The position numbers were made by a program, and so were the translations under genes. Positions 50,501-63,379 of a stretch of 63,379 nt of DNA are shown piece after piece (the first letter of the stretch is position 1; each line of letters opens with the position of its first letter). The stretch is from a virus. Where the stretch lies: positions 1-63,379 of the IMG/VR virus record IMGVR_UViG_3300036770_002271. One strand, given 5' to 3'. The notes below the pieces were generated by a model. That model saw nothing but the letters and a program-made list of their open reading frames with translations, ran no database searches and was not told where the DNA came from.

Positions 50501-53500
50501 AAGTGTATGGAATACTACATTTACATTTACTACATACACCAACACATTGTATGGTGTAAATGGTGTAACAACAACTGGTTTTAATGGTTTTATTGCTGTT
50601 GGAGCAGGACAAGAAGCTACAGGTTCAGGAGTAATAAATTGTAACGTTATAGTAACTAGTCTAGATGGACTTACTTGGACTAGATTGGGATATGTAAGCC
50701 TTAAAGGATTTTACGGAGTAAGTAGTAATGGCACAGTAGCAGTAGCAGTAGGTGAAGATGGGGTCATTTATAATTCTCAAAATGGTAGCGATTGGTATGG
50801 AATAAATGAATCAACTATACTAAGTGTAAATTCTGTTAGCGATACACTTATTGTTGACAGTACCATTGGAGTTAATGTAAATGATGTAATCAGATTTAAC
50901 AACTCATTTAGTAGTATTACAACAGGAACAAGTTATTATATTGTTGCTATACCAACATCAAATCAAATACAAATTAGTACAAGTTTAGGTGGTCCTGTAT
51001 TAACACTGACTGCTGGTACACCTAGTGATAATACATATTATTTCACTTACCCTACTACCGATACATTATATGATATAAGTTACGCAGGTGGTGTTTTTGT
51101 AACTGTTGGTGACAATGGTTTAATTAGAACGAGCAGTGATGGTATAACTTGGACAACAAGAACTTCAGGTACTACAAGAGATTTGCGTGGTATCACATAT
51201 AATTCAGGTATATGGATAGTAGTTGGACTTAATAATACTATTTTAAAGAGTACAGATAATGGTATTACATGGACAGATGTTTCATCATTTATTACAGAAG
51301 ATCCAGCTTACACTGTAAAAGGAGATAGTTTCTTATCAGGTTACGGCCCAGAAGAACTTGTTCCAGGTGTAGTAAGTGATAACCTTACAATGATTGTTAA
51401 TACACGACCTGGCACAAATTGGAGTGCTACAGAATATCAAAATGTAGGATATAATGTTGTAAGTATTGAATTTACACCGACCCCGTCAAATCAAGTTACT
51501 TATAGCTTTGACGAAATAGTTCAAGTTCCAGCACAGGTTGCTTTATTTGAGATTGTTAGTGCATCGGGATTATCAACAAGTTTATATGAAACATTAGATT
51601 ACACAGTAAATTGGATTAATAATACTATTACTTTAAATAGTTCATTACCTGTAGGTAATAAACTTAGACTTGATGTATATGAGGTGGGTAACGGAGATCA
51701 ATTAGTAAAATCAAATACTAAGATTGATCCGTTATTAACAAATAGTGTAACTGGCTTTAATGAAATTGTTTTAAATTGTAATTATAGCGAAAACATTTAC
51801 TTAGGTAGTGGTGTTCTTAGAACTGGAAGTAGTGCTATTGAAGAAACTGCTACACAAACTGATAGCGTTGATAATACAATTGTTGTTGGTGATGCTAGCA
51901 AATTTACATTGAACTCACCAATTTATTTTCAAGGTACGGTATTTGGTGGCATTGTTGCTAATAATACATATTATGTTAAAACAATTAGTATAGTAACTAA
52001 TAGAATTACTGTGTCTAGTACCTTTAATTTAATATCAGGTTTAGCTGGACCCACACTTACTGTAACAGATGCTACAGGAAGTATGACAGTAATTATACGT
52101 ACAGGAACAGGTAGTGTATGGACAGAACCTTACGTGGCACATAATGGGACAAAATTAATATTAGGTAAAACAGGTACGGTTAATGCTACAATTGCTGCTA
52201 CAGATACAGTTGTAGTCAATAGTACAGGTGGTATGGTAGCAGGAACACAAATAGTGTTTAGTAGCACGATGTTTGGGGGTGTTTTAACACCACTTACACC
52301 ATATAACATTTTAGTTATTGTAGATGGTAATGAATTTCAAATTGAAGACCCAAGCAGTCCAGGAAATCCATTAGCATTGACCGATAGCTCAGGTGGGGCT
52401 AGTTTTGTTAGTGGAGACTACAGCATAGCATTGGCAAGCAATGGAGTTAGTGCTAAATTAATATTCGCCGATGCATATAATGTTTCAACAGATTATTTGG
52501 TATACAGTGTATTTGGAGAAACAGAACCAGAACAATATGGTTACACAATACCTGAAACACAAGTATTTACAGCAACAGCTGGACAAACTGTTTTCAATTT
52601 AGATAATTTTGTTGGATATAATAATATTACTGATGCTATAGTAGAAGTTGACGGGTTACGTGTAAGTGATACATTATATACAATTGATTTTGTTTTAGAA
52701 ACATTAACATTTGGATCAGGATTAACTCTTGGTCAAATTGTTGCTGTAACAACTTATAATGATACGTTTAGACAATATCTAAACACACAATTTGACATAA
52801 CCAATAATTCTGTAGTTAACGTAACTAATGCTGTTTTAACAGTTGTAAGTCCTACTCCATATAGTGCTTATGTTACAGTAACCGTATCAGCACTACCACA
52901 AGTAAACGGAGTAGCAATAACAACAGGAGATGTCGTAAGATTTGCTGAATGTGTTGGAGCAGACCAATTAAATGGTCAAGCATTCTATATTGATAATATT
53001 GTAGGAAACACTTTTAGAATTTACACAGGTATATCAGGTGGTACACCAGTAGATCCTGTGAGCTTATTAGCAACATATATATCAGGTGGAGTATGTTGGA
53101 TAGACAGAACCTTCACATTAACAACAACTGTGGGAACAAGAACATTCAGTGCTAACAATAGAATATTAGTAAACAACACTGATAACTTAGTTGCTGGAAC
53201 ACCAGTATACTTTACACAAACAGGAAGTACATCAGGTGATATATTGCCTGGTGGATTAATTGATAGCCAAGAATATTTTGTATTAGAGGTTGCTCCAATT
53301 GTTACAATGGATGAAATTGTAACAAATGAAGTATACACAATTGAGGCACAAGGTATTCTAACTGATGCTGTAGAACTTGAAACAGGTAGAATTTATCAAA
53401 TCGTAACCATTGGAACTACAGACTTTACATTAGTTGGAGCAGCAAGTAATACGATTGGTATATACTTTACAGCAACAGGAGCAGGAACAGGAACAGGAAC

Positions 53501-54671
53501 AGCAATATTAGAACCAACTTACTATACATTACCTTATATAGGAGCAGGTGCTAATACCACAGGAACTGTGTTTACGGGTATCAATACTGGTCCTTATCCA
53601 GCAACAAGCATTGTAGCAGGGTATGTTTACACAATCATAAGTGTTGGTTCAACAGACTTTACGTTAATTGGTGCTAGTTCAAACACAGTAGGAACTACAT
53701 TTATAGCAACGGGAGTAGGTCTTGGCACAGGCACAGCAAGACAGGGTATAGGAACTATAATTGCTAGAAGCTTTACAGTGAGTGAGACAAGATTTGGTGA
53801 TGAACTAGTTTTAACAAATAGTGGGCCTGACACTATTCTAGTAAGTCAATTTGACCAAACTAATGTTGATAGACTCTGGGTTACATTAAATGGTTATCGT
53901 GTACCATCAAGTCAACTAGTTTTGTATCCTGGAAATAATTTAGGTATTCTAGTTCCAATTCTTACAACTGATGATGTAACAATTACAACAATGATGCCTA
54001 CCCCAACTCCAAATCAAGAAGTATACCTACAAAATGTAAACAAAAATGGTGTTGGAACAGTATTTAGAGAAAATACAAGAAATAGAACATGGTTAGCAAA
54101 TCAGTTACTATACACTGATAGTGAAATTGTTGTAAATAATGCTGAGTATATTACTGATGTTATTACTCAAACTTCAACAGTTCCTGCTTTAGGCTTAGAT
54201 GGACTATACACAATTGGATTAACTGCTGATAAAAATACCATTCTTTCAATCACTGTTTATAATAATACCACATCAGCGACAATTAATTCAAGTAATTATG
54301 TATTAAGTTTCGTTGGTAATCAACCAGTTATTGAAATAAACCCAGGAGCCTATATCAATGTAGGTAATAGTTTAACAATAACAGTAATAGTAGGAGGATT
54401 AATTTATATTAATGGTGAGCAGATACGCTTCACAGATGTTGATTTTGCTACTAACACATTGAGTGGCTTGACAAGAGGTGTCAATGGAACAGGGGTTCAA
54501 TTAAATATACCACAATATTCTGTTGTTTATAGCTTGATTTACACAAATCAATTAAGTCAAATAAATTACAACCAAACTTGGAATAGTAATCAATACAATA
54601 GCACATTGGGCGACCCACTACAGATTAGTAACACAGAAGCTTCAATATTCTTAAAAACGGATATAAATTAA
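35529..54671 (+). CDS. Giant multidomain baseplate/virion protein at the gp7 locus
   Basis: 6380 aa (about 0.7 MDa), uninterrupted over 19.1 kb. The N-terminus MRIRTLNFLPEVFHTPTNAQFLNATLDQLVNP and YDFLSYPGIIDSLKLQGG belongs to a family of very large structural proteins after gp6 in aquatic T4-like phages; in T4 that place is gp7. Seen along the chain: beta-sandwich repeats; CBM5/12-like modules (GQIVKYKNKYWVALKK, about 1870-1900, and SIVRYNNKVWECIVS, about 4765-4790); FG-GAP-like propeller blades (about 2260-2960, for example KWLYVGAPDINRVYVYR); five or more TDFTLIGA repeats (about 2420, 4211, 4244, 5958, 6041); a BNR/YCF48-like propeller (about 4860-5250, FVTVGDNGLIRTSSDGITW); and a 'G-E-K/Q-I ... 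N-L-S-x-L-x-R-G' module near 3604 and 6291. The N-terminus probably anchors in the wedge; the rest may be an adhesive arm. Function beyond that is inferred. Confidence 0.85.
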   Translation: MRIRTLNFLPEVFHTPTNAQFLNATLDQLVNPPVTQKIQGYIGSKLGYGINAKDYYVTEPTKVRTDYQLDPGVVFTKKNESTAYDFLSYPGIIDSLKLQGGITNNNSDLFTSEIYSWDSFTNLDKLINFNQYYWLPFGPPAVTVASDIVYSETDYVVTSEPNNYNIRIESASTGSDNPTITLLRGGTYTFTVDQASQFFIQGQPGVTGYSITQPNLSTRDILGVTNNGANVGTVTFNVPLSTAQNQYILPGSNTVDVISTVPYANVNGGTLSSIGGSIDGVTSLNGLTVMFYNTGVTDPLETTNFYTITTSGSPSNPTLTLTPSTAIPSNQKITASFGTVYNDRNFYKSTGGTIELIPYISANLDTLYYQDGSVANRVGVIRIIDSNLLNIINVNEDILGQTNYTSPNGVIFTNGLKVDFVGDIIPSSYANGTYYVEGVGTGIQLIPTDLLVNPEPFTTSAFIPYDTTPYDIGNYDTDLFILSNQDYITIARNSLSYNPWSRSNRWFHIEVINATAEYNNDPNIVTDYATYNNKAKRPIIEFYPNLKLYECGSVAKNPTDFIDLRTTDAFSLVAGHENYYPDVNVYTAYDCTINGVVNGTSTTINIPSSGVVGTFVIGQYIADLYEAGPSTSPPQIPDTAQITAISGLGTSTITLTINWTGNTTITTVNNASIIATEETVNNYALFEGCRVIFNNDTDNISNKIYVVTFAELTPGGTPVISLTEAPDGQVENNNQVVILRGANNIGKSYYYDIDIWKLGQQKTNVNQAPYFDVFDSNGISFGNTDIYIGSSFAGSKLFAYGIGSGPNDILLGFPIQYSSIDNPGDISFDVVINSQTFDYVTGSTPITQNINTGYVYNYSSLIDYTRMLGWQTCVSPSVQYQVFEFNYFADNPTNIFTCDVPALTTTETNWPVVKVFINNVFQEPTNYTYNISGNNTIVNLTVDGLIDTVVQVLVLSNEVSENSYFTVPLNLSNNPFNTNITTANIGDIRSQYSTIFMNNPNMTGVMFGSNNYRDLGNLVPYGNAIIQNSSPLTSVGSFLRLQNHNIFDSLQFNSREYVKFKTLLIDTVNQIVNEQNYTASTYLDDALDIITSTKNQEQPFFWSDMLPSKAPYLSRSYTFNNDLETSIFPLSRVYDFSKANYNGVLVYVSRIVSGTVIQLQLIKGTDYVISTDSPSLTVSFDLLAGDIVTINEYNQTYGSYVPNTPTKLGLYPSFIPTVILDSTYTQPTYFIIGHDGSYTKTYGNYNTTLGVLEDFRDQALLEFERRIYNNLKLSQTIPVSEYEVVPGYFRTTDLTWAEFLEIYSKNFLDWVGQNRLDYKSQYYDNNNQFTYNYSDSGIRLDNKPILQGYWRGVYEYFYDTSQPNTSPWEMLGYTSQPSWWTSVYGPSPYTSDNLVLWGDLANGYDYNNGNPVIREEFIRPGLLNVLPVDSNGNLVSPLSSIVGNYTSNTFQREWKVGDDSPVELSYRRSSTWPYDLMRILALTKPAKFFNLGIDLDNYLYNTEFNQYLVNNRSHLVLDDVEIYGSGVAKTSYINWIVDYEKQLGVNATTNITDLLFNLDVRLVYRVAGYSDKTLLKFYVEKGSPNSTNASLLIPDESYSVLLYENQPFDRIIYTSIIIQRVTNGYAVYGNSQNRAYFSTLSPKYDGFYDNITVEGLSAKITKNFTTPEQVVPYGYIFNTVQETSQFIANYGSWLIEKGMIFDQIENGVEINWRQMIGEFLYWAQTGWDVGSIVTLSPAATQIKIDRDSYIVQPLTLQQSNFILNQSLYPIQNIDLSIVRDQTLFNVQPLNEGDSLSYGQFNISNFEHGIVFDNTTVFDDRIYNLVTGLRQNRILVKGVKTAEWNGTVTASGFILNQDNITEWRTAIAYTKGQIVKYKNKYWVALKKIEPSSVFNELDWKETDYNEIQKGLLPNSSTRSYESSIYYNINEANLEQDADLLGFSLIGYRPRDYLALVDLTDTAQINVYRNFIRNKGTRNSLDAFKGARLPQGGIDYDIYENWAIKLHSFGGTLNDNFAEFRLRQNLLTGNPSIVSLTNGIPTIGSQQEVPLYSLFNYGSLITNPNILPTTDNYTPQIYPSAGYVNFNDVKMSSYFYNGLPTAVNEAGVIVPIEDFYVRDYVWLANFLGTWQVYTWQPLGQIILARGNNDGTTTIRFSSPQNIPLLTPIAIVNFSSLVDGYYIVTRLVNNSEVIINLTLDINLGQVTGYGVVSKFASQRVTQPSDIINLPLLNAEFIKNTVWVDEDTDGNWSVYRKGINYTFDNEKTKTNSDNFGSSVAFTTTSGYLIGDSGLGELYRYTYNIIQDDYELSETITESVSFGTAITYTDNFYFVSEPTSGSPKVYVYVINDSTESTDLIQLQTLTALGGSTNYGASLSISNDRKWLYVGAPDINRVYVYRQQYIPLSAGYFVNGEVYTITEVGTTDFTLIGALENKIGITFVATGIGSGNGTATQISYEYSTYLDGSILGDNYGITVSTDYYGDTLVVGAPSYDQSISATNWGRAYMYHRTVQNIEVQSNSYGGLPQLFSLGWTPAKTTVSVTNTTATTNLVTISNTAGLSVNDPIIFTGTGYGSSLLETEKVYYISSINSGAPGTITLKTSRTTNTNVTLNTETIGSGTAYIQTTPLYVTVNGRLVQDNNYAVISTNTFVYTGDVLAGDIINVSDNIFTLLQTFESESTPRPGVQFGISVGVTRTSNEIIVGAPFEISSQNSEGVVYRYTNGGGRYGVIIGTDECYITVPRKMFINGFLVILPVGDVNTTVNAINSTQVPNVQASATTDGKLIISVVDQNLSVPNEKLLVSVIDIVTLDELGFEIYTKTQTVLCPHLIGASQFGSVVKFNEFDSFVVSAPVGTRYSFTTFDFTDDENFENDTVFDNNATQFVDMLPNAGAVYMFDYLPSYNESLSNVGNFVYAQSCNDTNQNVGSLPRYGLSLDFNEYKVMVGSPYYQPNITNGQVVIYQNNVGIKDWSIYRRSSSVVDINKMQNLQIFSAETNDTLINLDYFDPLQGKLLGAVRENLDYVSNADPANYNSLDNTQSGLVWGANKVGLLWYNTSNTRFVNYHQNDVVYNSKYWGSVFPGSNVTVYSWVASNVIPSEYEGPGTPFDITKYTTQEVLNASNLLSPVYYFWVRNTNVIFRKTNKTLADSVIEQYINSPINSGISYLSPLLPNTFGLYNCQSYFDANDSVLHIGYSTGTSSDVPHNEYTLIRANYADDFLPGVPTFGSTERPTSLYDRLLDSLCGVDEEGGVVPNPFLPLAVQSGILVRPRQSFFYDRFLALKNYLQYANTICKQFPILEIRTPSYLYTSGLYFDTQDYWTKITWWAPGYDDNTKPALQVNFYADLSTLNVNTGTVVAVGQNNGSQEYYVYGTDRLWTRIGLQNGTIEFNSTLWDYAEAKLGFGDNFFDTSLYDEYPSEETRYIVRALNEQIYIDDLLVFRNKSLILLFEYIQSETTESQNYLPWLNKTSLVDVSHKIRELLPFEVYQTDNQDFLAGYLNETKPYHVVIKDFLFTYTGTDVYEGDITDFDLPSSYNSNFATFISPQLVYNSVIGDNQYLPNNSIWTNNLYSQWFNNRGVSLTGETNYQITTLAVYMTLGSTVIVVDNASGFPVNGVITIGTEKIVYSNVDRAANILSNLQRGYNDTDIQYHLPGELIYIDLPPVLLLNSGRDYTEPPKITAYIDTTIYPEPLQLAVLEPVMSLDKVIDVNVINPGQGYAVLPEIRIDPSLVITFSSVDVNLLLNTIRLFAPTLVTGDLVQYKVGTGTSIGGLVNSAWYYINLLEDNPSPIIALYTSYGDAVNNRDRVVFSNAGTGSDHTLNLGARASAISTSYPIREIDLTLRYDRTTYTTQVIDWRPGEYYGAFYAGRYSNSENIASSSITLQSVLPPINTILASAQGVAFEIVEVTNDRTIDYSNFVRNVLETVDVGSGVAEDRYLVRLTYDYNDPNAPGSTIGFTVGMPVKFIGLAIGGLVADTTYYVKKVINNSDFSISSTQFGSALTLTNANVTPAGLECFTAQIIDQGIITVNYPSIVEVTETFANTNKLLAPISAIGTGGTSGLYTNISITFTGNVFGNIVENEIYYVTSVADSETFTISRTLDPITTTLTNTNTSNIITVDSTTDFNLNDPIIFNQMVITVGNFVIGQKYTILTLGNTDYTVLGAKENLRSLEFIATSTGLVTAGSFVPGKQYVIQSLGTVLFNAGSFVPGNAYEIVSVGTTDFTLIGAANNSVGTIFTATGVGSGSGTANYITDFTLIGSSENVVGATFIATGFGTGPGTATQGSGTVAVTSFGNINQGTVYYVQNILNSTQLKISTVVNGSELTLSNQTGTATLINQKDVVQLTNATGSMNMNVSLPVSPGQVNGQLFTLYQTSGQYPSISSGTVSNLISRTINATLATVDKIALRTPSRILSATSNFYYNMPLVVDSNIGNLTTGIIYYVIEYTGRYDSNTDTTTPGLQVTVTTVSGSVLTCDDTNNLYVGMPIIFSGNGIGSVVIDLEYYVHSIINGTQFRLSNTNGGTIVTFVSGVGSMIGTGDDFIQVSTSIISPTVVTLSDADGPSTIEQTTTTITPASFDVSYTLGGYQVVISDQGSGYAVNNTVTIPGNLIGGVTTTNDLTIEVNSIGTMGEITSVIKLGTPAGNVNQYYLKVISINQFELYSNKQLTIPVSGLTLPYEGFTSSTVTGATSSVLTIDTTGFNEYDSVVFTGSVPNVITEGYTYYLYNVTPTTTQITTIPNDISSIVGSITFTSDFTMAKAGSFALLPEPFSFNRSIVRYNNKVWECIVSNNDDDFVFGKWVELNSGDRKLNALDRAFGYYQPTDNMPGRDLTQAFTGLIYPNTTYLGNAFAPEDQYNIDTFLQDQPFYPTDIDNVAITNNGTIYLGAANTNEYSGLITSTNTTSWEANGLTSLPIGFTDIIYAGGYYIVTTTNTATPIFYSSNGTVWTSSGAFTPYSSTPYDVTPWDVSALSVPADSLNSVGYKSNTWVAVGSSIVTATNVSVWNTTFTFTTYTNTLYGVNGVTTTGFNGFIAVGAGQEATGSGVINCNVIVTSLDGLTWTRLGYVSLKGFYGVSSNGTVAVAVGEDGVIYNSQNGSDWYGINESTILSVNSVSDTLIVDSTIGVNVNDVIRFNNSFSSITTGTSYYIVAIPTSNQIQISTSLGGPVLTLTAGTPSDNTYYFTYPTTDTLYDISYAGGVFVTVGDNGLIRTSSDGITWTTRTSGTTRDLRGITYNSGIWIVVGLNNTILKSTDNGITWTDVSSFITEDPAYTVKGDSFLSGYGPEELVPGVVSDNLTMIVNTRPGTNWSATEYQNVGYNVVSIEFTPTPSNQVTYSFDEIVQVPAQVALFEIVSASGLSTSLYETLDYTVNWINNTITLNSSLPVGNKLRLDVYEVGNGDQLVKSNTKIDPLLTNSVTGFNEIVLNCNYSENIYLGSGVLRTGSSAIEETATQTDSVDNTIVVGDASKFTLNSPIYFQGTVFGGIVANNTYYVKTISIVTNRITVSSTFNLISGLAGPTLTVTDATGSMTVIIRTGTGSVWTEPYVAHNGTKLILGKTGTVNATIAATDTVVVNSTGGMVAGTQIVFSSTMFGGVLTPLTPYNILVIVDGNEFQIEDPSSPGNPLALTDSSGGASFVSGDYSIALASNGVSAKLIFADAYNVSTDYLVYSVFGETEPEQYGYTIPETQVFTATAGQTVFNLDNFVGYNNITDAIVEVDGLRVSDTLYTIDFVLETLTFGSGLTLGQIVAVTTYNDTFRQYLNTQFDITNNSVVNVTNAVLTVVSPTPYSAYVTVTVSALPQVNGVAITTGDVVRFAECVGADQLNGQAFYIDNIVGNTFRIYTGISGGTPVDPVSLLATYISGGVCWIDRTFTLTTTVGTRTFSANNRILVNNTDNLVAGTPVYFTQTGSTSGDILPGGLIDSQEYFVLEVAPIVTMDEIVTNEVYTIEAQGILTDAVELETGRIYQIVTIGTTDFTLVGAASNTIGIYFTATGAGTGTGTAILEPTYYTLPYIGAGANTTGTVFTGINTGPYPATSIVAGYVYTIISVGSTDFTLIGASSNTVGTTFIATGVGLGTGTARQGIGTIIARSFTVSETRFGDELVLTNSGPDTILVSQFDQTNVDRLWVTLNGYRVPSSQLVLYPGNNLGILVPILTTDDVTITTMMPTPTPNQEVYLQNVNKNGVGTVFRENTRNRTWLANQLLYTDSEIVVNNAEYITDVITQTSTVPALGLDGLYTIGLTADKNTILSITVYNNTTSATINSSNYVLSFVGNQPVIEINPGAYINVGNSLTITVIVGGLIYINGEQIRFTDVDFATNTLSGLTRGVNGTGVQLNIPQYSVVYSLIYTNQLSQINYNQTWNSNQYNSTLGDPLQISNTEASIFLKTDIN

Positions 54672-54686: not shown

Positions 54687-54863
54687 ATGACTAACTTTAC
54701 CTTAACACAATTAATGCATAATAGAGTTGCACAAAAGAAAGAACACGAGCAACAGGAACAGAAAAAGCCTAATGAAAATTCGGGGATTTTACTTTCTAGC
54801 CATGTTAAAATTTATGATCCAAATACGAGTGAGGTATTAGTTCAGAAAAGGGCGGATGAGTAA
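54687..54863 (+). CDS. Small protein with KIYDPN motif
   Basis: 58 aa, translated from ATG 54687 to TAA 54861-54863. The sequence begins MTNFTLTQLMHNRVAQKKEHEQ, with a Gln/Glu/Lys-rich helix, and ends SSHVKIYDPNTSEVLVQKRADE. That end is nearly the same as residues 13-31 of the next protein (GFLKIYDPNSMEVFVDKKN), so the two share a short module. The stop overlaps the next start (TAATG), indicating translational coupling. Function unknown; a small virion or assembly protein is likely from its place between structural genes. Confidence 0.7.
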   Translation: MTNFTLTQLMHNRVAQKKEHEQQEQKKPNENSGILLSSHVKIYDPNTSEVLVQKRADE

Positions 54864-55483
54864 TGTCAATAATCAATTTATCCTATAAAGTTGAAGGGTT
54901 TTTAAAGATTTATGACCCAAATAGCATGGAAGTTTTTGTAGATAAGAAGAATGCTATCAACTATGAAAACATGAGCAATGCTATGGCTGACACATTAAGC
55001 AGTCGTGGATATGGAGAAATATATCAAATGGCTTTTGGAAATGGTGGAGCCAGTGTTAATGAGACTGGAATTATTACATATTTGCCACCAAATACCACAG
55101 GTCAGAATGCTAGTTTGTATAATGAAACCTATGCTAAGATAGTTGATGATACCAGTGTGTTTAATTTAGATCCAACACGTAACAAAATGACAGTTTTTCA
55201 CACTGCTGGAAAAGTTTATAGTGATATTCTTGTACAATGTTTGTTAGATTATGGGGAACCAGCTGGACAAGATACATTTGATAATAGTACACAAACAGAT
55301 AGCAGTTATATTTTTGATGAATTAGGATTATTAGCTAATTATGGCACAGACGCTAATGGTGAAGTCATTACTAGACTATTAACGCATGTAATTTTTCATC
55401 CAGTACAAAAATCATTAAACAGACAAATTCAAATTGATTATACAATACGAATTCAAAGTCTAACAAACTTAGTAACTATATAA
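54863..55483 (+). CDS. Conserved virion structural protein of T4-like phages
   Basis: 206 aa. Recognisable conserved blocks: KKNAINYENMSNAMADTLSSRGYGEIYQMAFGNGGASVNETGIITYLPPNT, then YAKIVDD, DPTRNKMTVFHTAGKVYSDILVQCLLDYGEPAGQDTFDN, and FDELGLLANYG...RLLTHVIFHPVQKSLNRQIQIDYTIRI. The family is common next to baseplate and fibre genes in aquatic T4-like phages, but I know no assigned biochemical role. Its place after gp6 and the giant protein could correspond to gp8, though no specific gp8 motif is seen. It starts with the KIYDPN module shared with the 58-aa protein upstream. Confidence 0.75.
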   Translation: MSIINLSYKVEGFLKIYDPNSMEVFVDKKNAINYENMSNAMADTLSSRGYGEIYQMAFGNGGASVNETGIITYLPPNTTGQNASLYNETYAKIVDDTSVFNLDPTRNKMTVFHTAGKVYSDILVQCLLDYGEPAGQDTFDNSTQTDSSYIFDELGLLANYGTDANGEVITRLLTHVIFHPVQKSLNRQIQIDYTIRIQSLTNLVTI

Positions 55484-55511: not shown

Positions 55512-56723
55512 ATGGCATATACGATTGTAAAAAGTGATGGGACAGTTCTAACAACCATTGCTGACGGTACTATCAACACAACTAGTACCCCGTTAGGGCT
55601 ACCAGGTAGAAATTATGCGGGATATGGACAAGCACTCGATACCAATTTTGTTCATCAGCTTGAAAACTTTGCCGATACGACTCCTCCTCCAAATCCATTA
55701 CGTGGGCAATTATGGTATGATATTAATAATCAAACATTAAACGTATGTCCTAGTGATGGTGAAACAAATACAGCAGCTTGGTTTACATTGGCACAATCAG
55801 GTAGCACAGGTACAACAACATTTGGTAATGTTACAGTAGCAGGAAATCTTGTAGCCAATAACATTACAGCAACCAACAACAGTAATGCTAATGCTATAAC
55901 AGTAGCATATCTTACAGTAACAGCAAATAGTTCTATTGCTAATAGTACAATAACTGCAGGAAACATTGTATCACTTACTACATCAAATATTACAACAGGT
56001 GCGGTAAGTAGTCCAGGTAACTTAACTGGTACTTGGACAATGAATGGAAGTGTAAGTGGCAATGGTCTTGTAATGGCAGGCGGTAACGTATATATTAATA
56101 ATACTGGTAACATTTATGGTATTAAGACAGACAAATACATGTATGCTAATGGTGATCCAATCAGTTTTGCTGGCACATATAGTAATTCAAACGTAGCAAG
56201 TTATTTAACTGTTTATGGTGGTAATATTTTAGCTAGTAGAGTACAAATGACACAACTTACTACTGGAGCAAATACTACACCAGGAAATATCACAGGTAAT
56301 TGGACATTAACAAGTGGTAGCAGATTACAAGCAACATATGCTGACTTAGCAGAACGATTTGAAGCAGACGATACATACGATCCTGGCACAGTTGTAGAAT
56401 TGGGCGGTATTAAGGAAATTACATCAGTCAAACAAGAGTTGAGTGATGATATCTTTGGTGTAATTAGTAATACTGCTGCTTATTTAATGAACGCAGGAGC
56501 AGGAGATGATAACACACATCCTCCTGTAGCAGTAAGTGGTCGTGTACAAGTTAGAGTAAAAGGTTTAGTTAAAAAGGGTGACAGGCTTGTTAGTGCGGGC
56601 AATGGGATAGCAAGGTCAGCAAAGATTAACGAAGCAACAGCATTTAATACAATAGGTAGAGCATTAGCTAACAAGACTACTGAAGGAATAGGTACTATTG
56701 AGGCTATAGTTAGCATAAGGTAA
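55512..56723 (+). CDS. Short tail-fibre protein with C-terminal beta domain
   Basis: 403 aa. The N-terminal domain (1-90) contains NYAGYGQALDTNFVHQLENFADTTPPPNPLRGQLWYDINNQTLNV, a baseplate-attachment domain common to fibre proteins of T4-like phages. Residues 95-275 are Asn/Thr/Ser-rich repeats of the triple-beta-helix kind (GNVTVAGNLVANNITATNN). The C-terminal domain YADLAERFEADDTYDPGTVVELGGIKEITSV ... DDIFGVISNTAAYLMN ... GRVQVRVKGLVKKGDRLVSA resembles the layout of autocatalytic chaperone-type (peptidase G2-like) fibre ends; this is a weak similarity by eye. The protein would be a trimeric fibre or adaptor. Confidence 0.78.
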   Translation: MAYTIVKSDGTVLTTIADGTINTTSTPLGLPGRNYAGYGQALDTNFVHQLENFADTTPPPNPLRGQLWYDINNQTLNVCPSDGETNTAAWFTLAQSGSTGTTTFGNVTVAGNLVANNITATNNSNANAITVAYLTVTANSSIANSTITAGNIVSLTTSNITTGAVSSPGNLTGTWTMNGSVSGNGLVMAGGNVYINNTGNIYGIKTDKYMYANGDPISFAGTYSNSNVASYLTVYGGNILASRVQMTQLTTGANTTPGNITGNWTLTSGSRLQATYADLAERFEADDTYDPGTVVELGGIKEITSVKQELSDDIFGVISNTAAYLMNAGAGDDNTHPPVAVSGRVQVRVKGLVKKGDRLVSAGNGIARSAKINEATAFNTIGRALANKTTEGIGTIEAIVSIR

Positions 56724-56732
56724 GGATAAAAA

Positions 56733-57683
56733 ATGACATATGCACAATATGGCTTAGTAGAAGCAAGTGATTATAACAACTTAATTGGTACCAGTCCTGG
56801 TACTACAGCAAATAGACTTAATACCGTTTGGGCAACAGGTGGAGGTAGTGCAGGTTATGGTCAAACAGCTATAGCCAATGTAAGTGTGGGAAATACTGTA
56901 ACTGCTAGTCAATGGAATAGTGTTATAAATAATACAGCTAATAGTGCCAGTCATCAAGGATCAAGCATCACTAGTGTTTCAGCGGTAGTTGCCGGTGGCA
57001 CAATAACTTTCTTAAGTGCTATCCCAACAAACTTAACGACCATTTATACAAATAGATTAAATGCTGCTGCTCAAGGATCAACATCAAGTAACGCAGTAAC
57101 AAGAGGAAGTACATGGACTAATTCTTTAGTTTTCACACATACTATAACATTTTCAAGTGGTGACACAGCACGTTACTTTTTTAATTCAGGTGGACAAATA
57201 GCTATAACAGCAAGTCATCCAGCTGGATCAGGCATTAATACAACATTTAATGGATTAGCAAGTAATATCGGCACAGTTGTATTAAGTGCTCCCACTAGTG
57301 GAACAATTACTGTATCAGGTGTTTCATATAATGGAGTAACAAAAATTGGGGGAGGTGGTAACAGCCCAACTATAAGTCAAAATAATGGATATTATGCCCT
57401 TACAACTAGCAATGCTAATGTATTCACACAAACTGCGAGTAGTGGTTATGTTGGATATCTTGGAAGCTTCATACGTATAATTGTAAAATCAAATGGTACC
57501 CAAGGTTCAAATAGTGACGCAGGAAGTGTAATTAATGTATACACTGTTTGGGATGAAGTTCCAGATGGTCAAATAGTTAGCATAGGAAGTGTTACCACAT
57601 GTACATTAAGACCACCAAGTACAAGTTATATTGCTAATACTTGGGGAGCTATAGGTTTGTCAGGCTCAGTATCAGGTTCTTAA
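56733..57683 (+). CDS. Virion structural protein, probable fibre
   Basis: 316 aa. It begins MTYAQYGLVEASDYNNLIGTSPGTTANRLNTVWATGGGSAGYGQTAI, a conserved opening of a small structural family in aquatic T4-like phages. Next is a helical stretch (TASQWNSVINNTANSASHQGSSIT) and a beta-rich Gly/Ser/Thr C-terminal part with few charged residues. An AAGGAT ribosome-binding site precedes the ATG. It lies directly after the fibre gene with a 9-nt gap and probably forms part of the same appendage. No enzymatic motif is visible. Confidence 0.72.
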   Translation: MTYAQYGLVEASDYNNLIGTSPGTTANRLNTVWATGGGSAGYGQTAIANVSVGNTVTASQWNSVINNTANSASHQGSSITSVSAVVAGGTITFLSAIPTNLTTIYTNRLNAAAQGSTSSNAVTRGSTWTNSLVFTHTITFSSGDTARYFFNSGGQIAITASHPAGSGINTTFNGLASNIGTVVLSAPTSGTITVSGVSYNGVTKIGGGGNSPTISQNNGYYALTTSNANVFTQTASSGYVGYLGSFIRIIVKSNGTQGSNSDAGSVINVYTVWDEVPDGQIVSIGSVTTCTLRPPSTSYIANTWGAIGLSGSVSGS

Positions 57684-57709
57684 TAATTTTCATCAACAAT
57701 TTGCTGTAT

Positions 57710-57717
57710 CTAAATAC
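57710..57717 (+). promoter_or_regulatory. Late-like box CTAAATAC for the modification operon
   Basis: CTAAATAC lies 14 nt before the ATG at 57732, with a TAGGAG ribosome-binding site between. It is the only such box seen upstream of the overlapping gene run that continues to the window end. Confidence 0.6.
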
Positions 57718-57731: not shown

Positions 57732-58043
57732 ATGGATACAGCAACATTAATTTCAGACGCTAAAGCAAGATTCGCACATAATTCACATAGAAACTATTTA
57801 AGAGAAAAGTATACAAGCAAACTCATTGTTGCTGAACAAGGAGGCTTATGGAAAGTTACGCCTGAACTAATCAGTTTCTTACACACAATGACAAGCAATA
57901 CCGTATCTGATATGATTTTACAGGATAGCTATAATAATCCAATTAAGATTAATGTAAACAAATTACTTAAAACTTGTACAGAAACATATAATCAAACAAT
58001 GGTAGATTGGTACAATGAACTTCATAATACAGAAAAGAAATGA
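57732..58043 (+). CDS. Conserved small protein of T4-like phages, function unknown
   Basis: 103 aa. The pattern DAKARFAHNSHRNYLREKYTSKLIVAEQGGLWKVTPELISFL, then LQDSYNNPIKINVNKLLKTCTETYNQTMVDWYNELHNTE, is one I recognise as widely conserved in marine T4-like phages near structural genes. It is predicted mostly helical and has no enzymatic motif. It heads the operon containing the glycosyltransferase-like genes; its stop overlaps the next start (ATGA), so it is translated in coupling with them. A role in virion assembly is as likely as one in the modification system. Confidence 0.7.
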   Translation: MDTATLISDAKARFAHNSHRNYLREKYTSKLIVAEQGGLWKVTPELISFLHTMTSNTVSDMILQDSYNNPIKINVNKLLKTCTETYNQTMVDWYNELHNTEKK

Positions 58044-58843
58044 TACGAGGAGCTTTACTCTTTGCCTACAATAATGATACATGTGACTATTTCAAACAAG
58101 CAGAAATAACAGCATGTCGTATTAATCATTTTCTTAATTTACCAGTTACCGTAATTACTGATGAAAATAGTTTGCCTGAAAATCCAATTAATGTTTTTGA
58201 TAAAATTATTTTAACAGATCCTAACAAATCAAATAAAAAATTTAGAGAAGTTTGGATTAACAAAAATAGATATAGGGCTTTTGAATTAAGTCCATATGAT
58301 GAAACATTATTAATTGATACAGATTACGTTGTAAATTCAAAACAATTAAGTAAGCTTTTTACTTTATACACAGATTTTGCTTGTCACAATTCAACTAATT
58401 TTTTAATGACTGAAAATAAATATTCTGAGTATTTAAGTCAGTTTAGTTATAAAACAGAATGGGCAACTGTTGTTTATTTTAGAAAAACAAAAAAATCCAA
58501 ACAGATTTTTGATTGTATTAAAATGATACAAGACAATTATTTACATTATGCTAATTTACATAATTTTCTTTCAGAACCATTTAGGAACGACTATGCCTTA
58601 ACATTGGCAAGACGTATTGTACAGGGACAAACTGAACTAGAAAGAGAAGTTATCCCATGGTGTCTTACACACATAGGAGATAAAACAAAAGTTTATAAGC
58701 TTAATAATAATTTTTATGATACAGAATTTATTATTGTTTACGACAAATGGATGAATGGTAAGATCAAAAAAGAATATATGACTATTAAAGATTATGACTT
58801 TCATTTAATGGACAAAGAAAATTTCATGGAGTTATGGACTTGA
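58040..58843 (+). CDS. Glycosyltransferase-like protein A (GT-A fold, DxD)
   Basis: 267 aa. It starts with a beta-strand (RGALLFAYNND), has a nucleotide-binding type N-terminal half and carries ETLLIDTDYVV (about 88-98), whose D-x-D is the metal/nucleotide-sugar motif of GT-A glycosyltransferases. It is paralogous to the next protein: YRAFELSPYDETLLIDTDYV matches WQVYEASPYDYTIKLEADLYI. A short two-domain enzyme of the GT8-like kind is the best reading; donor and acceptor cannot be inferred. It overlaps the genes on both sides (4 bp and 10 bp). Confidence 0.7.
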   Translation: MIRGALLFAYNNDTCDYFKQAEITACRINHFLNLPVTVITDENSLPENPINVFDKIILTDPNKSNKKFREVWINKNRYRAFELSPYDETLLIDTDYVVNSKQLSKLFTLYTDFACHNSTNFLMTENKYSEYLSQFSYKTEWATVVYFRKTKKSKQIFDCIKMIQDNYLHYANLHNFLSEPFRNDYALTLARRIVQGQTELEREVIPWCLTHIGDKTKVYKLNNNFYDTEFIIVYDKWMNGKIKKEYMTIKDYDFHLMDKENFMELWT

Positions 58844-59637
58844 ATAAAGGATATATAATCTATGCTCAAAATTCTACAACTGTAAATTATATAGGTTGTG
58901 CCACAACATTGGCAAAAAGTCTTAAACGAGTTATGCCTTATTGTAATGTAAGTTTACTTACTAATGAAAAGGTTGAAAGTACTATATTTGATCATGTTAT
59001 AAAATTACCATATGGAGATTTGGATCCTTTCAATAATTGGAAATTAGTAAATGATTGGCAAGTTTATGAAGCTAGCCCATATGATTATACAATTAAACTA
59101 GAGGCAGACCTTTACATTCCTTGTGATATTGATTATTATTGGGATGTGCTACAACAGAAAGATTTGGTTTGTTGTACAACAATTAGAGATTTCAAACAAA
59201 ATATTTCAAATATTAAGTCATACAGAAAGTTTATAACTGATAACAAGTTACCAAATACTTATAACGCTATTACTTATTTTAAAAAATCAAATTTAGCAGA
59301 TGAGTTTTTTAAAATTGTAAGAAACATTTTTGAAGATTGGGATAGTTATAAAAATATTTTAGTTTGTAATAATGATGAATTAGTAACCACTGATTGGGCT
59401 TATGCTATAGCATCGCATATATTAGGACAAGAACATACTACAATGCCTGATTTTACACCTTATAGTATGATACATATGAAAAAATTTATTAATAATTTGT
59501 ATACTGAAAATTGGACAAAAAATTTAGTATATGAAATCTTGCCACATGCGTTTAAAGTAAATACATATCCTCAACGATATCCTTTTCATTATTTGATAAA
59601 AGATTTTTGTTATGAGATAGATAAGGCAGTGCTATGA
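58834..59637 (+). CDS. Glycosyltransferase-like protein B, paralogue of A
   Basis: 267 aa, the same length as protein A. It shares the plan: an N-terminal strand (GYIIYAQNSTTVNYIGCATTLAKSLKRVMPYCNVSLLTNE), then SPYDYTIKLEADLYIPCD where Glu-Ala-Asp takes the place of the usual D-x-D. Later motifs LPNTYNAITYFKKSNLADEFFKIVRNIFEDWDSY and TTDWAYAIA are typical of this phage family. The altered acidic motif may still bind metal or mark a changed or lost activity. It starts inside the end of protein A and its stop overlaps the next start (ATGA). Confidence 0.65.
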   Translation: MDLNKGYIIYAQNSTTVNYIGCATTLAKSLKRVMPYCNVSLLTNEKVESTIFDHVIKLPYGDLDPFNNWKLVNDWQVYEASPYDYTIKLEADLYIPCDIDYYWDVLQQKDLVCCTTIRDFKQNISNIKSYRKFITDNKLPNTYNAITYFKKSNLADEFFKIVRNIFEDWDSYKNILVCNNDELVTTDWAYAIASHILGQEHTTMPDFTPYSMIHMKKFINNLYTENWTKNLVYEILPHAFKVNTYPQRYPFHYLIKDFCYEIDKAVL

Positions 59638-59972
59638 CAACAGAAACAATTGTATTATGGGAAGCACCTGCTCTTGAAAAGCCCGAATTTAGATTATATT
59701 ATGATGAAGAAGGGAATGTAATTACATATACTACAGAAAAATTGCCAGGTAACTTTATTGTTATTGATAAGATGACATTTGCCGAAGCAAGACCAGATGT
59801 TAAAGTTTTTGAAGGTTCTTTAACACGAAAATCTAATCTTACAGTAGTAAGTAAATTAATTCCTAACATAGAGGGAATAAGTTGTAGTATTGATGATATT
59901 AGTATTTTATATAATGGAAGTGAAACAATTAATTGGAGTTTGAAGACCCGTGAGTACAGAATTGATAGTTGA
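59634..59972 (+). CDS. Conserved protein of unknown function
   Basis: 112 aa. The phrase FRLYYDEEGNVITYTTEKLPGNFIVIDKMTFAEARPDVKVFEGSLTR is a recurring small-protein pattern in aquatic T4-like phages. It looks like a compact beta-rich fold with no Cys and no catalytic motif. It lies between two glycosyltransferase-like genes and overlaps both, 4 bp upstream and 23 bp downstream, so it is probably part of the same pathway or complex. No function can be assigned from sequence. Confidence 0.65.
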   Translation: MTTETIVLWEAPALEKPEFRLYYDEEGNVITYTTEKLPGNFIVIDKMTFAEARPDVKVFEGSLTRKSNLTVVSKLIPNIEGISCSIDDISILYNGSETINWSLKTREYRIDS

Positions 59973-60900
59973 TGTTGCTGACTTAGATTGTATCTATTTG
60001 AGCTATGATGAACCACAAAAAGAATTATTTTGGTTACAAATACAAGACATGATACCTTATGCTAAACGTGTGGATGGTGTTAAAGGAAGTGATGCTGCTC
60101 ACAAAGCAGCAGCAGAGGCTAGTGATACCGAACGTTTTATACTCATCGATGGCGATAATATGCCACAATCTGAATTCTTTAATATTCAATTAGATTTTTC
60201 AAAAGTTGATGAAGTTTTTCAGATTGCTCAGTTTCGTTGGAAGGCTGTAAACCATATAAATGGTTTATGTTATGGTAATGGTGGTATGAGCAGTTGGACA
60301 AAATCATATGTTCGTAATATGAAAACACATGAGCATAGTCAAGGTAATAAAAACAGCACTGTAGATTTTTGTTTGGATAGTAGCGATAATGTTTATTATG
60401 CTATGTGGGATTGTTACAGTACAACTTATCCGAACTATACACCATTTCAAGCTTGGCGTGCTGGATTTCGTGAAGGTGTAAAAATGTCGTTAAGACAGGG
60501 TATTGTACCTACTGTAACTGAATTTCAGGAAAGTGTAAGTAAACGAAATTTAAATAATTTAACGATATGGCATAATGTTGGAACTGATGTTGACAATGGT
60601 ATATGGGCTATATATGGAAGTCGATTAGGTACATATATGACTATGCTTACAGATTGGGATCATAGCCAAGTTCAATGGTTTGATAATTTTTTGTCAATGT
60701 GGGAACAATATGAACATGTGGATCCAAGTTTAGAAGCAGAAAAGATTGGGGTAATTTTATCTGACAAACTTAAGCTGCCAATTTGTACACTAAATAGTGA
60801 ACAAAGTAAATTCTTTAAACTCCATCTTAATTCAAATAGACACAATTTAGGACCATTGGTTCGTGAAATGGATGTAATAAGAAAAATAGAAGGATGGTAA
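59950..60900 (+). CDS. Glycosyltransferase-like protein C
   Basis: 316 aa, from the GTG at 59950, which overlaps the previous gene by 23 bp; a later start would lose the first conserved strand (LIVDVADLDCIYLSYDEPQK). It contains YAKRVDGVKGSDAAHKAAAEASDTERFILIDGDNMP (about 37-72): the 'V-x-G-x-x-x-A-H-x-x-A-A' helix followed by I-D-G-D-N is the nucleotide-sugar and D-x-D pattern of a viral GT-A family. The C-terminal half (PFQAWRAGFREGVKMSLRQG) is helical. Donor and acceptor are unknown. Its stop overlaps the radical-SAM start (TAATG). Confidence 0.68.
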   Translation: MSTELIVDVADLDCIYLSYDEPQKELFWLQIQDMIPYAKRVDGVKGSDAAHKAAAEASDTERFILIDGDNMPQSEFFNIQLDFSKVDEVFQIAQFRWKAVNHINGLCYGNGGMSSWTKSYVRNMKTHEHSQGNKNSTVDFCLDSSDNVYYAMWDCYSTTYPNYTPFQAWRAGFREGVKMSLRQGIVPTVTEFQESVSKRNLNNLTIWHNVGTDVDNGIWAIYGSRLGTYMTMLTDWDHSQVQWFDNFLSMWEQYEHVDPSLEAEKIGVILSDKLKLPICTLNSEQSKFFKLHLNSNRHNLGPLVREMDVIRKIEGW

Positions 60901-61847
60901 TGGATCACAAATATATTAAATTAGTTCACAGTAATCCCGCACATGAAGATTGGTTTGTAGTAAATTGGTGTTTAGGAAACACATGTAATTATAGTTGTAG
61001 CTATTGTCCAAGTAGTTTACATGATGGTTCAATTAAATGGCCTGAACTTGATAAAATAAAACAATTTATAACAAGAGTTGTTGAACAAACATATCCGCGT
61101 AAAGTGTATTTTGAATTAACTGGGGGCGAAGTAACACTATACAAATATTTCACCGAAATTTGTCAACATTGTACAGAATTAGGCGCTAAAGTAGGTCTTA
61201 TAAGTAATGGTAGTCGTACATTACGTTGGTGGGAGGAAAATAAACAATACTTTGATCATGTATGTTTAAGCTTTCATCCTGAATTTGCTGAACCCGAACA
61301 TTTTATTGAGGTAGTAAAGATATTACATAATGAAGTTCGTGTCCATGTCAATGTAATGATGGCTCCTGATAAATTTGATTATTGTTATAGTGTAGCTGAT
61401 CGAGTAAAAGATTTAGGTAATATCAGTATGGCATTACAACCATTAATACATGATTTTGGTGAGGTTGTATATGATTATAATGAGTTTCAGAAAAATGTAT
61501 TTGATAGACAGCATGAATTAATTACAAAACATATAAAATTTAACAAATCATTTGATTATTATCGTGGTGCTATGCGACTAATTTATCCTGACGGAACAAG
61601 TGAAGTTAGTAGTGCACATCGTTTTATAAGCTTTAAAACTAATGATTGGAGTGGTTGGAAATGTTATGCTGGAGTTGAACAAATCATTGTAGATTTAGGT
61701 GGTAATATATTTCGTGGTTGGTGTAGGGTAGGGGGCAAGATTGGACATATACATGATGAAGATTTATTAATACCAATAGACCCTGTTATGTGTAACAAAA
61801 CTATGTGTCATTGTAATTTTGACATAATGTCAACTAAGGAGTTGTAG
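60900..61847 (+). CDS. Radical SAM enzyme with C-terminal auxiliary Cys (SPASM-like) domain
   Basis: 315 aa from ATG 60900 (TAATG overlap; the in-frame ATG two codons earlier is also possible). The core motif is C29-N-Y-S-C33-S-Y-C36, the CxxxCxxC of radical SAM proteins, which bind a 4Fe-4S cluster to cleave S-adenosylmethionine. VYFELTGGEVTLY is the GGE motif. The C-terminal part WKCYAGVEQIIVDLGGNIFRGWC then MCNKTMCHCNFD supplies extra Cys for an auxiliary cluster, as in SPASM/twitch enzymes that modify peptides, proteins or sugars. The substrate is unknown. It sits among glycosyltransferase-like and sulfotransferase genes. Its stop overlaps the next GTG start. Confidence 0.88.
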   Translation: MDHKYIKLVHSNPAHEDWFVVNWCLGNTCNYSCSYCPSSLHDGSIKWPELDKIKQFITRVVEQTYPRKVYFELTGGEVTLYKYFTEICQHCTELGAKVGLISNGSRTLRWWEENKQYFDHVCLSFHPEFAEPEHFIEVVKILHNEVRVHVNVMMAPDKFDYCYSVADRVKDLGNISMALQPLIHDFGEVVYDYNEFQKNVFDRQHELITKHIKFNKSFDYYRGAMRLIYPDGTSEVSSAHRFISFKTNDWSGWKCYAGVEQIIVDLGGNIFRGWCRVGGKIGHIHDEDLLIPIDPVMCNKTMCHCNFDIMSTKEL

Positions 61848-62563
61848 TGAGATATTGTATTGTTTCTAGTCCTAGGACTGGAACAACTGCCCTAACAGAA
61901 GCATTAAGAATTTATTCATTTCAAAATAATCCTATAAGTGTGTATTATGGAGAATTACATCATATTAATCTAAACACACTTCATGTATCAGGACATAAAT
62001 CGATAACAACTATCAATGATTATAATAGCCAAGAAAGTAAAGAAATTAGGAATTTAATAAAGTATTATATAGAGCAAACAAATTCTGCTATGGTGGGTAA
62101 ATATTTCCCACATATTTGGCACTTTGAATATTTTGATCCAATGGAAATTCCGAAATATTTATTAGAACATAATTTTAAATTAATTCATATCCGACGTAAT
62201 TTATTTGATGTTATAATTAGTGGTTTAGTTGCTAATATTACTGGTTACTATCATACAAATATGAATCCCTCATATAAAGATCAAATCAAGCCTAATTTTA
62301 AAGACAAATTAAAATTAACTTTCGAATTTTGTATAAAAACAGCTAACCACATGTCTTTAAGCTATTATCTTGTTACACAAATCTGTAAAAAATATCCTAT
62401 TACTGTAATAAATTATGATAATTTAATAGAGGAAAGTACTAATTTATTACCATGTAGTTGGGATCAAGTAACATTAGAAAAAACCTATAAAGAGCCATAT
62501 GAAGAAATTATTGAAAATTATAATGAAGTAAAAAGTTGGATTAAAGATTTTATACATGAGTAA
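61847..62563 (+). CDS. Sulfotransferase-family protein
   Basis: 238 aa from GTG 61847 (overlapping the preceding TAG). The N-terminal P-loop SSPRTGTTAL (7-16) is the PAPS 5'-phosphosulfate loop of sulfotransferases, and FKLIHIRRNLFDVIIS (about 111-126) is the 3'-phosphate-binding strand and helix with the expected Arg and downstream Ser. Length and topology fit a compact bacterial or phage sulfotransferase of the Sulfotransfer_3 type. It would move sulfate from PAPS to a sugar or protein hydroxyl. The context with three glycosyltransferase-like proteins suggests a sulfated glycan. It ends by overlapping the next gene by 8 bp. Confidence 0.83.
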   Translation: MRYCIVSSPRTGTTALTEALRIYSFQNNPISVYYGELHHINLNTLHVSGHKSITTINDYNSQESKEIRNLIKYYIEQTNSAMVGKYFPHIWHFEYFDPMEIPKYLLEHNFKLIHIRRNLFDVIISGLVANITGYYHTNMNPSYKDQIKPNFKDKLKLTFEFCIKTANHMSLSYYLVTQICKKYPITVINYDNLIEESTNLLPCSWDQVTLEKTYKEPYEEIIENYNEVKSWIKDFIHE

Positions 62564-63379
62564 TAAAAATTCCAACAAACAATTAAGAATTTATGATGAA
62601 ACCGGTAAGTTTACTTTATTGTCAGTAGACGAAACTATTGCTAGGGATTACAATCATTGGAAAGATTGGCATTGTAGTGCTGGTATAAGAGGGTTGTATA
62701 TTGATTATGATGGTAATGTTTGGGTATGTAATACAGCAAGTTCAAAATTCAATCGTTTTAATTATGATGAATGGAAAACAACCTATATGAAGTATATAGG
62801 TCATTATGGTAATAATGTTCCAAGTGAATGGCAGTCTACTGGTGAAAAATGGATAAAATTAAACAATGAATATCTTAAAACTAAAAATGCCTTTAAAAAA
62901 ATTATACCAGTAACTTCAGAAGGTAAAAAAGATAATCCAGGATTCATTGGTAATATCTATGAAAACATTGATTTTACAAAAACTTGGTTTACATGTCCAT
63001 GGGATCAATGTGGGTGCGGGGCTGACGTTGTTTTAAGTAAAGTAAAAGACAAAAGTAAAGTTGATATATTAAGTGTAACTAATTATGGAATTCGTGGTAA
63101 AGAAATTACAGAATACGATGAAGTAGAAAATATACAAATGCCAATTGGTATTGAACTAGACTTTCCTATGCCATATCAGATATTGTGGGATTTAAGTAGA
63201 AAGTGTAATTATGATTGTAGTTATTGTTGGCCTAGCGTACACAATAATACTGATGAACATAAAGATTATAATTTGTTACTAAACACAGTAGATAACATCA
63301 TACAAAATTGGGCTAACCATAATACAATTCGTTGGAACTTTGGAGGAGGAGAGCCTACATTACATCCTAACTATAAAGA
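62556..63379 (+). CDS. Second radical SAM protein with N-terminal auxiliary Cys domain (C-terminus outside window)
   Basis: Open from ATG 62556 to the window end, 274 codons. The N-terminal region has WHCSAGIRGLYIDYDGNVWVC (C40, C58) and C147-PWDQ-C152-G-C154. These mirror the C-terminal auxiliary domain of the other radical SAM protein (CYAGVEQIIVDLGGNIF and C-NKTM-C-H-C). The radical SAM motif C217-N-Y-D-C221-S-Y-C224 comes after, followed by IRWNFGGGEPTLHP (GGE motif) at the edge. The auxiliary domain therefore precedes the core, the reverse of the usual order. It overlaps the sulfotransferase by 8 bp and belongs to the same operon. Substrate unknown. Confidence 0.85.
   Translation, partial: MSNKNSNKQLRIYDETGKFTLLSVDETIARDYNHWKDWHCSAGIRGLYIDYDGNVWVCNTASSKFNRFNYDEWKTTYMKYIGHYGNNVPSEWQSTGEKWIKLNNEYLKTKNAFKKIIPVTSEGKKDNPGFIGNIYENIDFTKTWFTCPWDQCGCGADVVLSKVKDKSKVDILSVTNYGIRGKEITEYDEVENIQMPIGIELDFPMPYQILWDLSRKCNYDCSYCWPSVHNNTDEHKDYNLLLNTVDNIIQNWANHNTIRWNFGGGEPTLHPNYK

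Follow-up and report, generated by a model that had tools for sequence, protein, structure and literature searches.

Gene content of the locus

We analysed a 63,379-nucleotide (nt) stretch of viral DNA (IMG/VR record IMGVR_UViG_3300036770_002271; the whole stretch is hereafter the window), whose right end is occupied by a unit of eight open reading frames (ORFs), g1 to g8, all on the + strand and running from 57732 to the contig end (Table 1). The unit combines three GT-A-like glycosyltransferase (GT) proteins, two radical S-adenosylmethionine (rSAM) proteins, a predicted sulfotransferase and two small conserved proteins, and it lies behind a block of fibre-like genes. All seven of its internal junctions overlap, by 4, 10, 4, 23, 7, 1 and 8 nt in order; the four junctions upstream, from f1/f2 through f4/g1, stand at -1, +28, +9 and +48 nt. 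An initial annotation, made from the bare sequence, had likewise found every junction of the eight genes to overlap and had proposed a translationally coupled unit downstream of fibre genes, a coupling that the overlaps support and a placement borne out by the tight and conserved linkage of GT and fibre genes in the relatives described below. The TAATG junction that it listed within the unit is misplaced: the 1-nt junction reads TAG/GTG, and TAATG sits at 54863, outside the unit. The island probably belongs to an uncultured lineage of contractile-tailed phages.

Table 1. Features of the fibre block and of the g1-g8 unit, with coordinates in the window
Feature	Coordinates	Strand	Assignment	Remarks
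f2	54863..55483	+	fibre-block gene, conserved-core member	206 aa; 35-91% identity in g5 loci where found
f3	55512..56723	+	fibre-like, predicted Peptidase_G2 autoproteolytic chaperone domain	Pfam PF11962, E 5.9e-8
f4	56733..57683	+	fibre-like, familyless	position syntenic in relatives
box	57709..57716	+	T4-late-promoter-like box TCTAAATA, then C	inside the 48-nt gap ahead of g1
g1	57732..58043	+	conserved, 103 aa	alignment with 18 relatives
g2	58040..58843	+	predicted GT8-like GT-A protein	DxD (D93, D95) invariant
g3	58834..59637	+	predicted GT8-like GT-A protein	E/D-x-D, D92 invariant
g4	59634..59972	+	conserved, 112 aa	alignment with 15 relatives
g5	59950..60900	+	GT-A-like, unnamed family, DGDN/DADN motif	GTG start
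g6	60894..61847	+	predicted radical SAM enzyme, rSAM then twitch	Pfam Radical_SAM
g7	61847..62563	+	predicted PAPS-type sulfotransferase	SPRTGTT and IRRNLFDVIIS motifs
g8	62556..63379	+	predicted radical SAM enzyme, twitch then rSAM	open at contig end; ORF read to 63377

A fixed core and fast-changing cargo

Relatives were collected by scanning viral contigs with g6, which gave 41 loci, and with g5, for which the best 80 of 134 were taken; five contigs present twice are counted once in the counts of core, cargo, box and g6 neighbours. In all 96 contigs holding g5, those of the genes f2-f3-f4-g1-g2-g3-g4-g5 that could be detected follow one another in unbroken order; all of g1-g4 were recognised in 91 and every gene from f2 to g5 in 86. 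The ten remaining contigs are without a detected f2, f3, f4, g1 or g4, and several of these lie near a contig end or are distant. Given this recurrence of the same genes in the same order in 96 of 96 contigs, the arrangement is not a product of chance. The genes f2-f3-f4 together with g1-g5 form a fixed core, and everything after g5 is fast-changing cargo. This does not bear out the initial notion of six enzyme families constituting one pathway: only g2, g3 and g5, along with g1 and g4, are fixed, and g6 is present in 23 of the 96 g5 contigs. Conversely, 20 of the 43 contigs with g6 are without g5 in the stretch fetched.

The first gene after g5 is a + strand member of the cargo cluster c0 in 65 of the 96 contigs, g6 in 23 and some other gene in 7, with one contig ending there. 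Cluster c0 numbers 359 ORFs spread over 110 loci, a tally in which duplicate loci are kept, and four members scanned against NCBIfam score 289-341 bits with NF033640 (N_Twi_rSAM), the cut-off of which is 170 bits. Among 39 records picked for holding g5 or g6 relatives (near-identical ones such as G006, G011 and G012 being kept separate), NF033640 exceeds its cut-off in 37; at E 0.001 the number of matches in a record ranges from 1 to 17. The rest of the cargo includes B12-binding rSAM proteins, NAD-dependent epimerases, sulfotransferases, a carbamoyltransferase, DUF6071, a mannose-6-P-isomerase-type cupin and an NTP transferase. Its turnover is rapid: the three cargo groups that come first follow one order in a fraction of 0.70 of 40 contig pairs with g5 identity of at least 95%, 0.22 of 93 pairs at 88-95% and 0.03 of 924 pairs at 70-76%, these pairs not being independent of each other. 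Two loci whose g5 genes are 96.8% identical (L083 and L086) have none of the first three cargo genes in common.

All 12 of 12 extended stretches encode a giant protein, c9, near the right-hand end of their cargo, lying directly after a gene of the carbamoyltransferase cluster c16 in 8 of the 12. Complete copies of c9 measure 1353-2014 aa; the protein contains FDFSW-type repeats, and its C-terminal part shows homology with g5 (E values from 1e-5 to 8e-15). Examples are found in L124-L135, such as that at 3529-9357 of L134 with FDFSWRPDP-type repeats; the g5-like end is without DxD in the copies read.

A tblastn search (threshold 1e-5) of 50,697 records of named phages recovered no match for g3, g4, g5 or g6, the genes of the unit that served as queries; an N_Twi relative gave a single, partial match in the same set of records.

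The glycosyltransferase-like proteins g2, g3 and g5

None of g1-g5 matches a Pfam family above its cut-off. The AlphaFold model of g3 (pLDDT 94.8) matches the catalytic domains of glycogenin, LARGE1 and UGGT (best row: Z 16.0, rmsd 3.7, 204 residues); Foldseek likewise places glycogenin at the top (E 2.8e-7), with LgtC also among the matches. Going by this model, g3 is a GT-A fold protein of the glycogenin/LgtC type, a class that is GT8 in the CAZy nomenclature; its identity to glycogenins is about 10-14%. The GT-A fold of g2 is predicted from its homology to g3 only (hhalign 99.6%). The third protein, g5, is the more distant: only the N-terminal half of its model (pLDDT 87.3) aligns, over 140 residues, with top matches that mostly have a GT-A or nucleotidyltransferase fold (Z at most 9.1; rmsd 3.3-3.4), hhalign detects no similarity between it and g3, and its closest viral models are two uncharacterized proteins of uncultured phages (TM 0.59 and 0.58). 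Its GTG start is preceded by an in-frame stop 9 nt upstream.

All three proteins keep an acidic motif, namely DxDY in g2, E/D-x-D in g3 and DGDN/DADN in g5, in which D67 and D69 are invariant across 33 sequences. The g5 alignment holds 32 relatives of 41 listed, one of the 41 being the window itself; the others hold 28 of 60 printed relatives (A2), 25 of 60 printed (A3), 18 of 60 (A4) and 15 of 60 printed (A5). The earlier recognition of three GT-A-like proteins is upheld by the g3 model, the g2-g3 homology and the retained DxD/ExD motifs, with g5 as the weaker and more tentative case.

The putative tailoring proteins g6, g7 and g8

Both predicted radical SAM proteins of the initial annotation exceed the Pfam Radical_SAM cut-off of 29.5 bits: g6 with 42.1 bits (E 1.3e-10) and the CxxxCxxC motif CNYSCSYC, and g8 with 33.5 bits (E 6.1e-8) and CNYDCSYC. 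The auxiliary cysteine domains also attributed to them are putative. The C-terminus of g6 matches the N-terminus of g8 (E 1.8e-5) and, more strongly, that of a g8-type relative (E 4e-16), and the rSAM parts of the two match each other as well; the N-terminal SPASM match of g8 stays at 15.1 bits, below the cut-off of 21.5. As far as these matches go, g6 and g8 share an rSAM and a twitch-type domain, arranged rSAM-twitch in g6 and twitch-rSAM in g8; the twitch-type auxiliary cysteine domain of each is a putative cluster binder. As a query against viral contigs g8 retrieved no relative; BLAST against the loci already fetched did find some, including a full-length one (L008, 10965-12218, 417 aa).

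Neither protein falls readily into a named family. With NF033640 the incomplete g8 scores 23.3 bits against the cut-off of 170, and g6 is absent among the 25 matches shown of 30. The best named family for both is that of the viperin models; we considered and rejected an identification as prokaryotic viperin, as the scores with NF038283 are 63.4 (g6) and 41.7 bits (g8) against a cut-off of 180 and the alignment to g6 spans only the generic rSAM core (residues 22-127).

For g7, the Sulfotransfer_1 profile is above its cut-off (26.5 versus 22 bits; E 5e-6), and the segments SPRTGTT and IRRNLFDVIIS align, with substitutions, with 20 relatives. We take these to be the 5'-PSB and 3'-PB motifs binding 3'-phosphoadenosine-5'-phosphosulfate (PAPS), in keeping with the sulfotransferase of PAPS type proposed at the outset.

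In the 23 contigs with both g5 and g6, the gene after g6 is a sulfotransferase-like gene (c6) in 9, a g8-type gene (c2) on the + strand in 6, a c0 N_Twi rSAM gene in 5 and a c2 gene on the - strand in 2, with one contig end. The c6 sulfotransferase and a + strand c2 gene occur together in the listed cargo of none of the 23, nor does any of them show the order g6-g7-g8, so that the window has its own mosaic. Moreover, a g5-type domain is fused in front of g6 in 7 of 43 g6 ORFs (E 6e-33 to 3e-38; the seven include near-identical pairs), tying a GT-A-like domain to an rSAM enzyme.

A late-promoter-like box ahead of the core GT genes

The gap ahead of g1 contains TCTAAATAC at 57709, and no TAAATA occurs within 70 nt ahead of any of g2-g8 in the window. 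This box resembles the late promoter of T4, the consensus of which is TATAAATA. Across the window as a whole, TAAATA-type boxes lie upstream of 15 of 35 ORFs picked by us, compared with a mean of 1.3 and a maximum of 7 in 2000 draws of random 70-mers; yet rearrangements of these letters score as high as 11, so that the box is no more than suggestive within the window and its weight rests on the relatives. For these, start codons were placed by alignment and each distinct upstream stretch entered the count a single time; 72 of 74 such sequences have TAAATA in the 60 nt ahead of g1, compared with 3.2% of background 60-mers. For the fibre genes the figures are 70/76 (f3), 22/80 (f4) and 0/68 (f2), and for the rest of the core 0/75 (g2), 2/77 (g3), 0/72 (g4) and 6/78 (g5). 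Since the box precedes g1 in nearly all relatives and almost never g2-g4, the g1-g8 unit is probably expressed late. Where g5 lies ahead of g6, 14 of 23 loci also have a TAAATA box before g6, as do 3 of the 19 remaining ones; accordingly, a second transcript may start at g6 in relatives.

Virion proteins around the unit and the question of the acceptor

To the left of the island lie hub/lysozyme- and wedge-type baseplate genes and then a giant virion protein; this 6380-aa ORF (35529-54671, +) is directly 3' of the baseplate-wedge gene, and its start matches a virion structural PHROG. What bears on a T4-like (Tevenvirinae) identity of the phage is confined to baseplate, portal and head PHROG matches. 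Of the adjoining fibre-like genes, f3 matches PHROG 6427 and a tail fiber PHROG (0.0014), and f4 has neither a Pfam nor a PHROG match.

At the opposite end, a collagen-like ORF (2-7573, -) runs off the contig; it encodes at least 2524 aa and contains hundreds of G-x-Q triplets. The threonines of its Gly-Thr-Gln triplets had been suggested as acceptors on the fibre. However, this protein is about 50 kb from the unit and not among the adjoining fibre genes. The strict G-x-Q DNA pattern has 437 matches in the window and occurs in 0 of 39 other records, and the more general pattern, Pfam Collagen, is found in 11 of the 39, near-identical records again being kept separate, and is missing from G001, G008, G004 and G007 (525, 349, 333 and 260 kb). 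We therefore reject the collagen-like protein as a general acceptor, a rejection that does not extend to this phage itself.

Counterparts in bacterial genomes

A scan of genome contigs with g5 gave 37 loci, many of which appear to be phage contigs binned into metagenome-assembled genomes (MAGs), judging from the g2/g3 or fibre relatives alongside. Eight MAG loci (L140, L143, L150, L152, L157, L163, L169 and L170) combine g5 with a c0-type rSAM gene and have no fibre-gene match in the stretch; their titles name Bdellovibrionia, Bdellovibrionales, Bdellovibrionaceae, Bacteriovoracaceae, Halobacteriovoraceae or just 'bacterium'. Like the window island, these have a g5 homologue next to N_Twi and other rSAM genes; unlike it, they are without fibre genes where read (L143, L169 and L170 in detail) and have GT2-like, QueC-like and FAD oxidoreductase neighbours. 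NF033640 has 1 to 33 matches in each of the genomes of 15 chosen loci, above the cut-off in 11 of them. The genomes of L143, L152, L170 and L169 (G040-G043), mostly of Bdellovibrio type, have 25 to 33 matches each, partly clustered near g5 and GT-like genes. Going by gene neighborhoods, the GT-rSAM partnership also exists in cells. In a set of Rhodobacterales-type loci (L153-L155, L158, L159, L162, L164 and L166) g5 has no rSAM match in the stretch, and bacterial g5 relatives adjoin GT2 or GT1/4 genes (L165, L162). A Paraburkholderia MAG encodes a 732-aa protein (L161, 6732-8930) with a C-terminal g5-type domain (E 1.5e-72).

A proposal for function and its competitors

We tentatively favor, at a confidence somewhat short of even, the proposal that this is a late, fibre-linked island making a tailored glycan, sulfated and radically modified, probably on virion proteins; the sugar-type tailoring enzymes, the late-type box and the unbroken fibre link make such a glycan the most likely product. 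Here, g2 and g3 would transfer sugars from nucleoside diphosphate sugars, and g5 would extend or branch the chain. By radical chemistry, g6 and g8 might then act on the sugar, or on the peptide that anchors it, through oxidation, dehydration, epimerisation or cross-linking, and g7 would add sulfate with host PAPS as the donor. The likeliest acceptor would be a virion protein made late in infection, with the neighbouring f3 and f4 as prime candidates, a choice suggested by adjacency alone. In this scheme the core would attach a base glycan, and cargo turnover would alter its decoration, with effects on adsorption, masking or virion stability. A more specific version is possible though doubtful: a combinatorial coat on fibres or other virion proteins, in which the glycan of the fixed GT core is rewritten by rapidly interchanged rSAM, B12-rSAM, sulfo- and carbamoyl-enzymes, with g5-g6 as the elementary machine shared with predatory Bdellovibrio-type bacteria. 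Several points weigh against the virion glycan. The product, the acceptor and the activities are all putative, late expression is read from a motif alone, the fold likeness of g5 to GT-A proteins is moderate, and the unit may be split in relatives in view of the box ahead of g6. Further, the fibreless Bdellovibrio-type loci with g5 and rSAM genes indicate that these enzymes need not act on virions.

That last point keeps alive the readings based on general glycans and on the host surface. The main rival, which we judge rather unlikely, is that the enzymes remodel the O-antigen or another envelope glycan and so block superinfecting competitors. A study of pelagimyophages makes this very proposal for the same type of island, with GT8 as the commonest GT (PMC7029224), and bacterial g5 relatives lie in chromosomal glycan-type loci. 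Yet the late-type box would bring a change of the host too late for most of the benefit. Membrane segments are predicted in only 21 of 825 cargo ORFs of at least 100 aa; for the extended stretches the figure is 31 of 183 ORFs, although cargo is among these and the contrast is therefore approximate. Such a scarcity is more in line with an acceptor in the cytosol than with a lipid-linked O-antigen. In addition, the few cargo proteins scanned included neither a flippase nor a polymerase. Twitch/SPASM rSAM enzymes often modify peptides, which brings a second chemistry into play: the rSAM enzymes could make cross-links, epimers or thioethers on a fibre or another large protein, with the GTs and the sulfotransferase acting on the same target. 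The NF033640 arrays, which reach 17 matches in a single record, would suit it, as would weak matches to peptide-maturase families such as WgkB, PapB and YydG and the best match of B12-rSAM cargo to a model of C-methyltransferases of ribosomally synthesized and post-translationally modified peptides, albeit below the cut-off. We hold this unlikely: the maturase matches are far under the curated cut-offs, and the dense packing of the cargo (of 528 same-strand junctions, 489 show an overlap or a gap of no more than 10 nt, and 4 exceed 100 nt) leaves little room for precursors, none of which was found, ORFs under 60 aa not being scanned.

It is improbable that the genes are unrelated morons without a common product, gathered at a recombination-prone site behind the fibres. 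Cargo does differ even at 95-97% g5 identity, but it is enriched in a few enzyme classes, foremost c0, and both the g5-g6 fusion and the clustering of the same families in Bdellovibrio-type chromosomes speak against this reading. Least credible by far is a viperin-like role in counter-defence or in antiviral-nucleotide chemistry: among named families the viperin models do match g6 and g8 best, yet the scores stay far below the cut-off and the alignment covers the generic core, and both the added twitch domain and the setting in a fibre-linked operon with a late-type box argue against it.

Relationship to known systems

If the virion-glycan proposal is true, it would account for the long series of radical SAM genes in large aquatic phages. 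It would also give a function to NF033640, the commonest cargo family of the relatives, of which g6 and g8 themselves fall below the cut-off and whose description (twitch domain-containing radical SAM protein) gives none. Further, it would name g5 with g6 as a minimal pair and f3/f4 as a fixed candidate acceptor.

The general kind of island, and phage genomes rich in rSAM genes, are already known. In pelagimyophages and cyanomyophages the host recognition cluster (HRC), a region of fibres and GTs with GT8 the most represented, lies in the structural region between VrlC and the neck gene gp14; a modification of the O-chain was proposed for it, and two close pelagimyophage genomes differ by radical-SAM-related cassettes (PMC7029224). 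Like the HRC, the window island unites tail fibres with several GT genes in a region of hypervariable content. The lineage of the window differs by its fixed g1-g5 core, its long NF033640 arrays and the giant c9 downstream, often after c16, and the available portions of the HRC account do not treat rSAM enzymes as glycan tailoring. Similarly, the T4-like environmental genome TARA_ERS488813_N000010 has 12 rSAM genes, discussed as Fe-S metabolism (PMC5332604); it shares with the present lineage the wealth of such genes, but in the accessible text they are not linked to fibres or GTs. We found no description of this exact island in the open-licence literature. What is new here is the g1-g5 core with its late-type box, the g5-g6 fusion, the swapped order of the twitch domain, the link to c9 and the Bdellovibrio-type counterpart.

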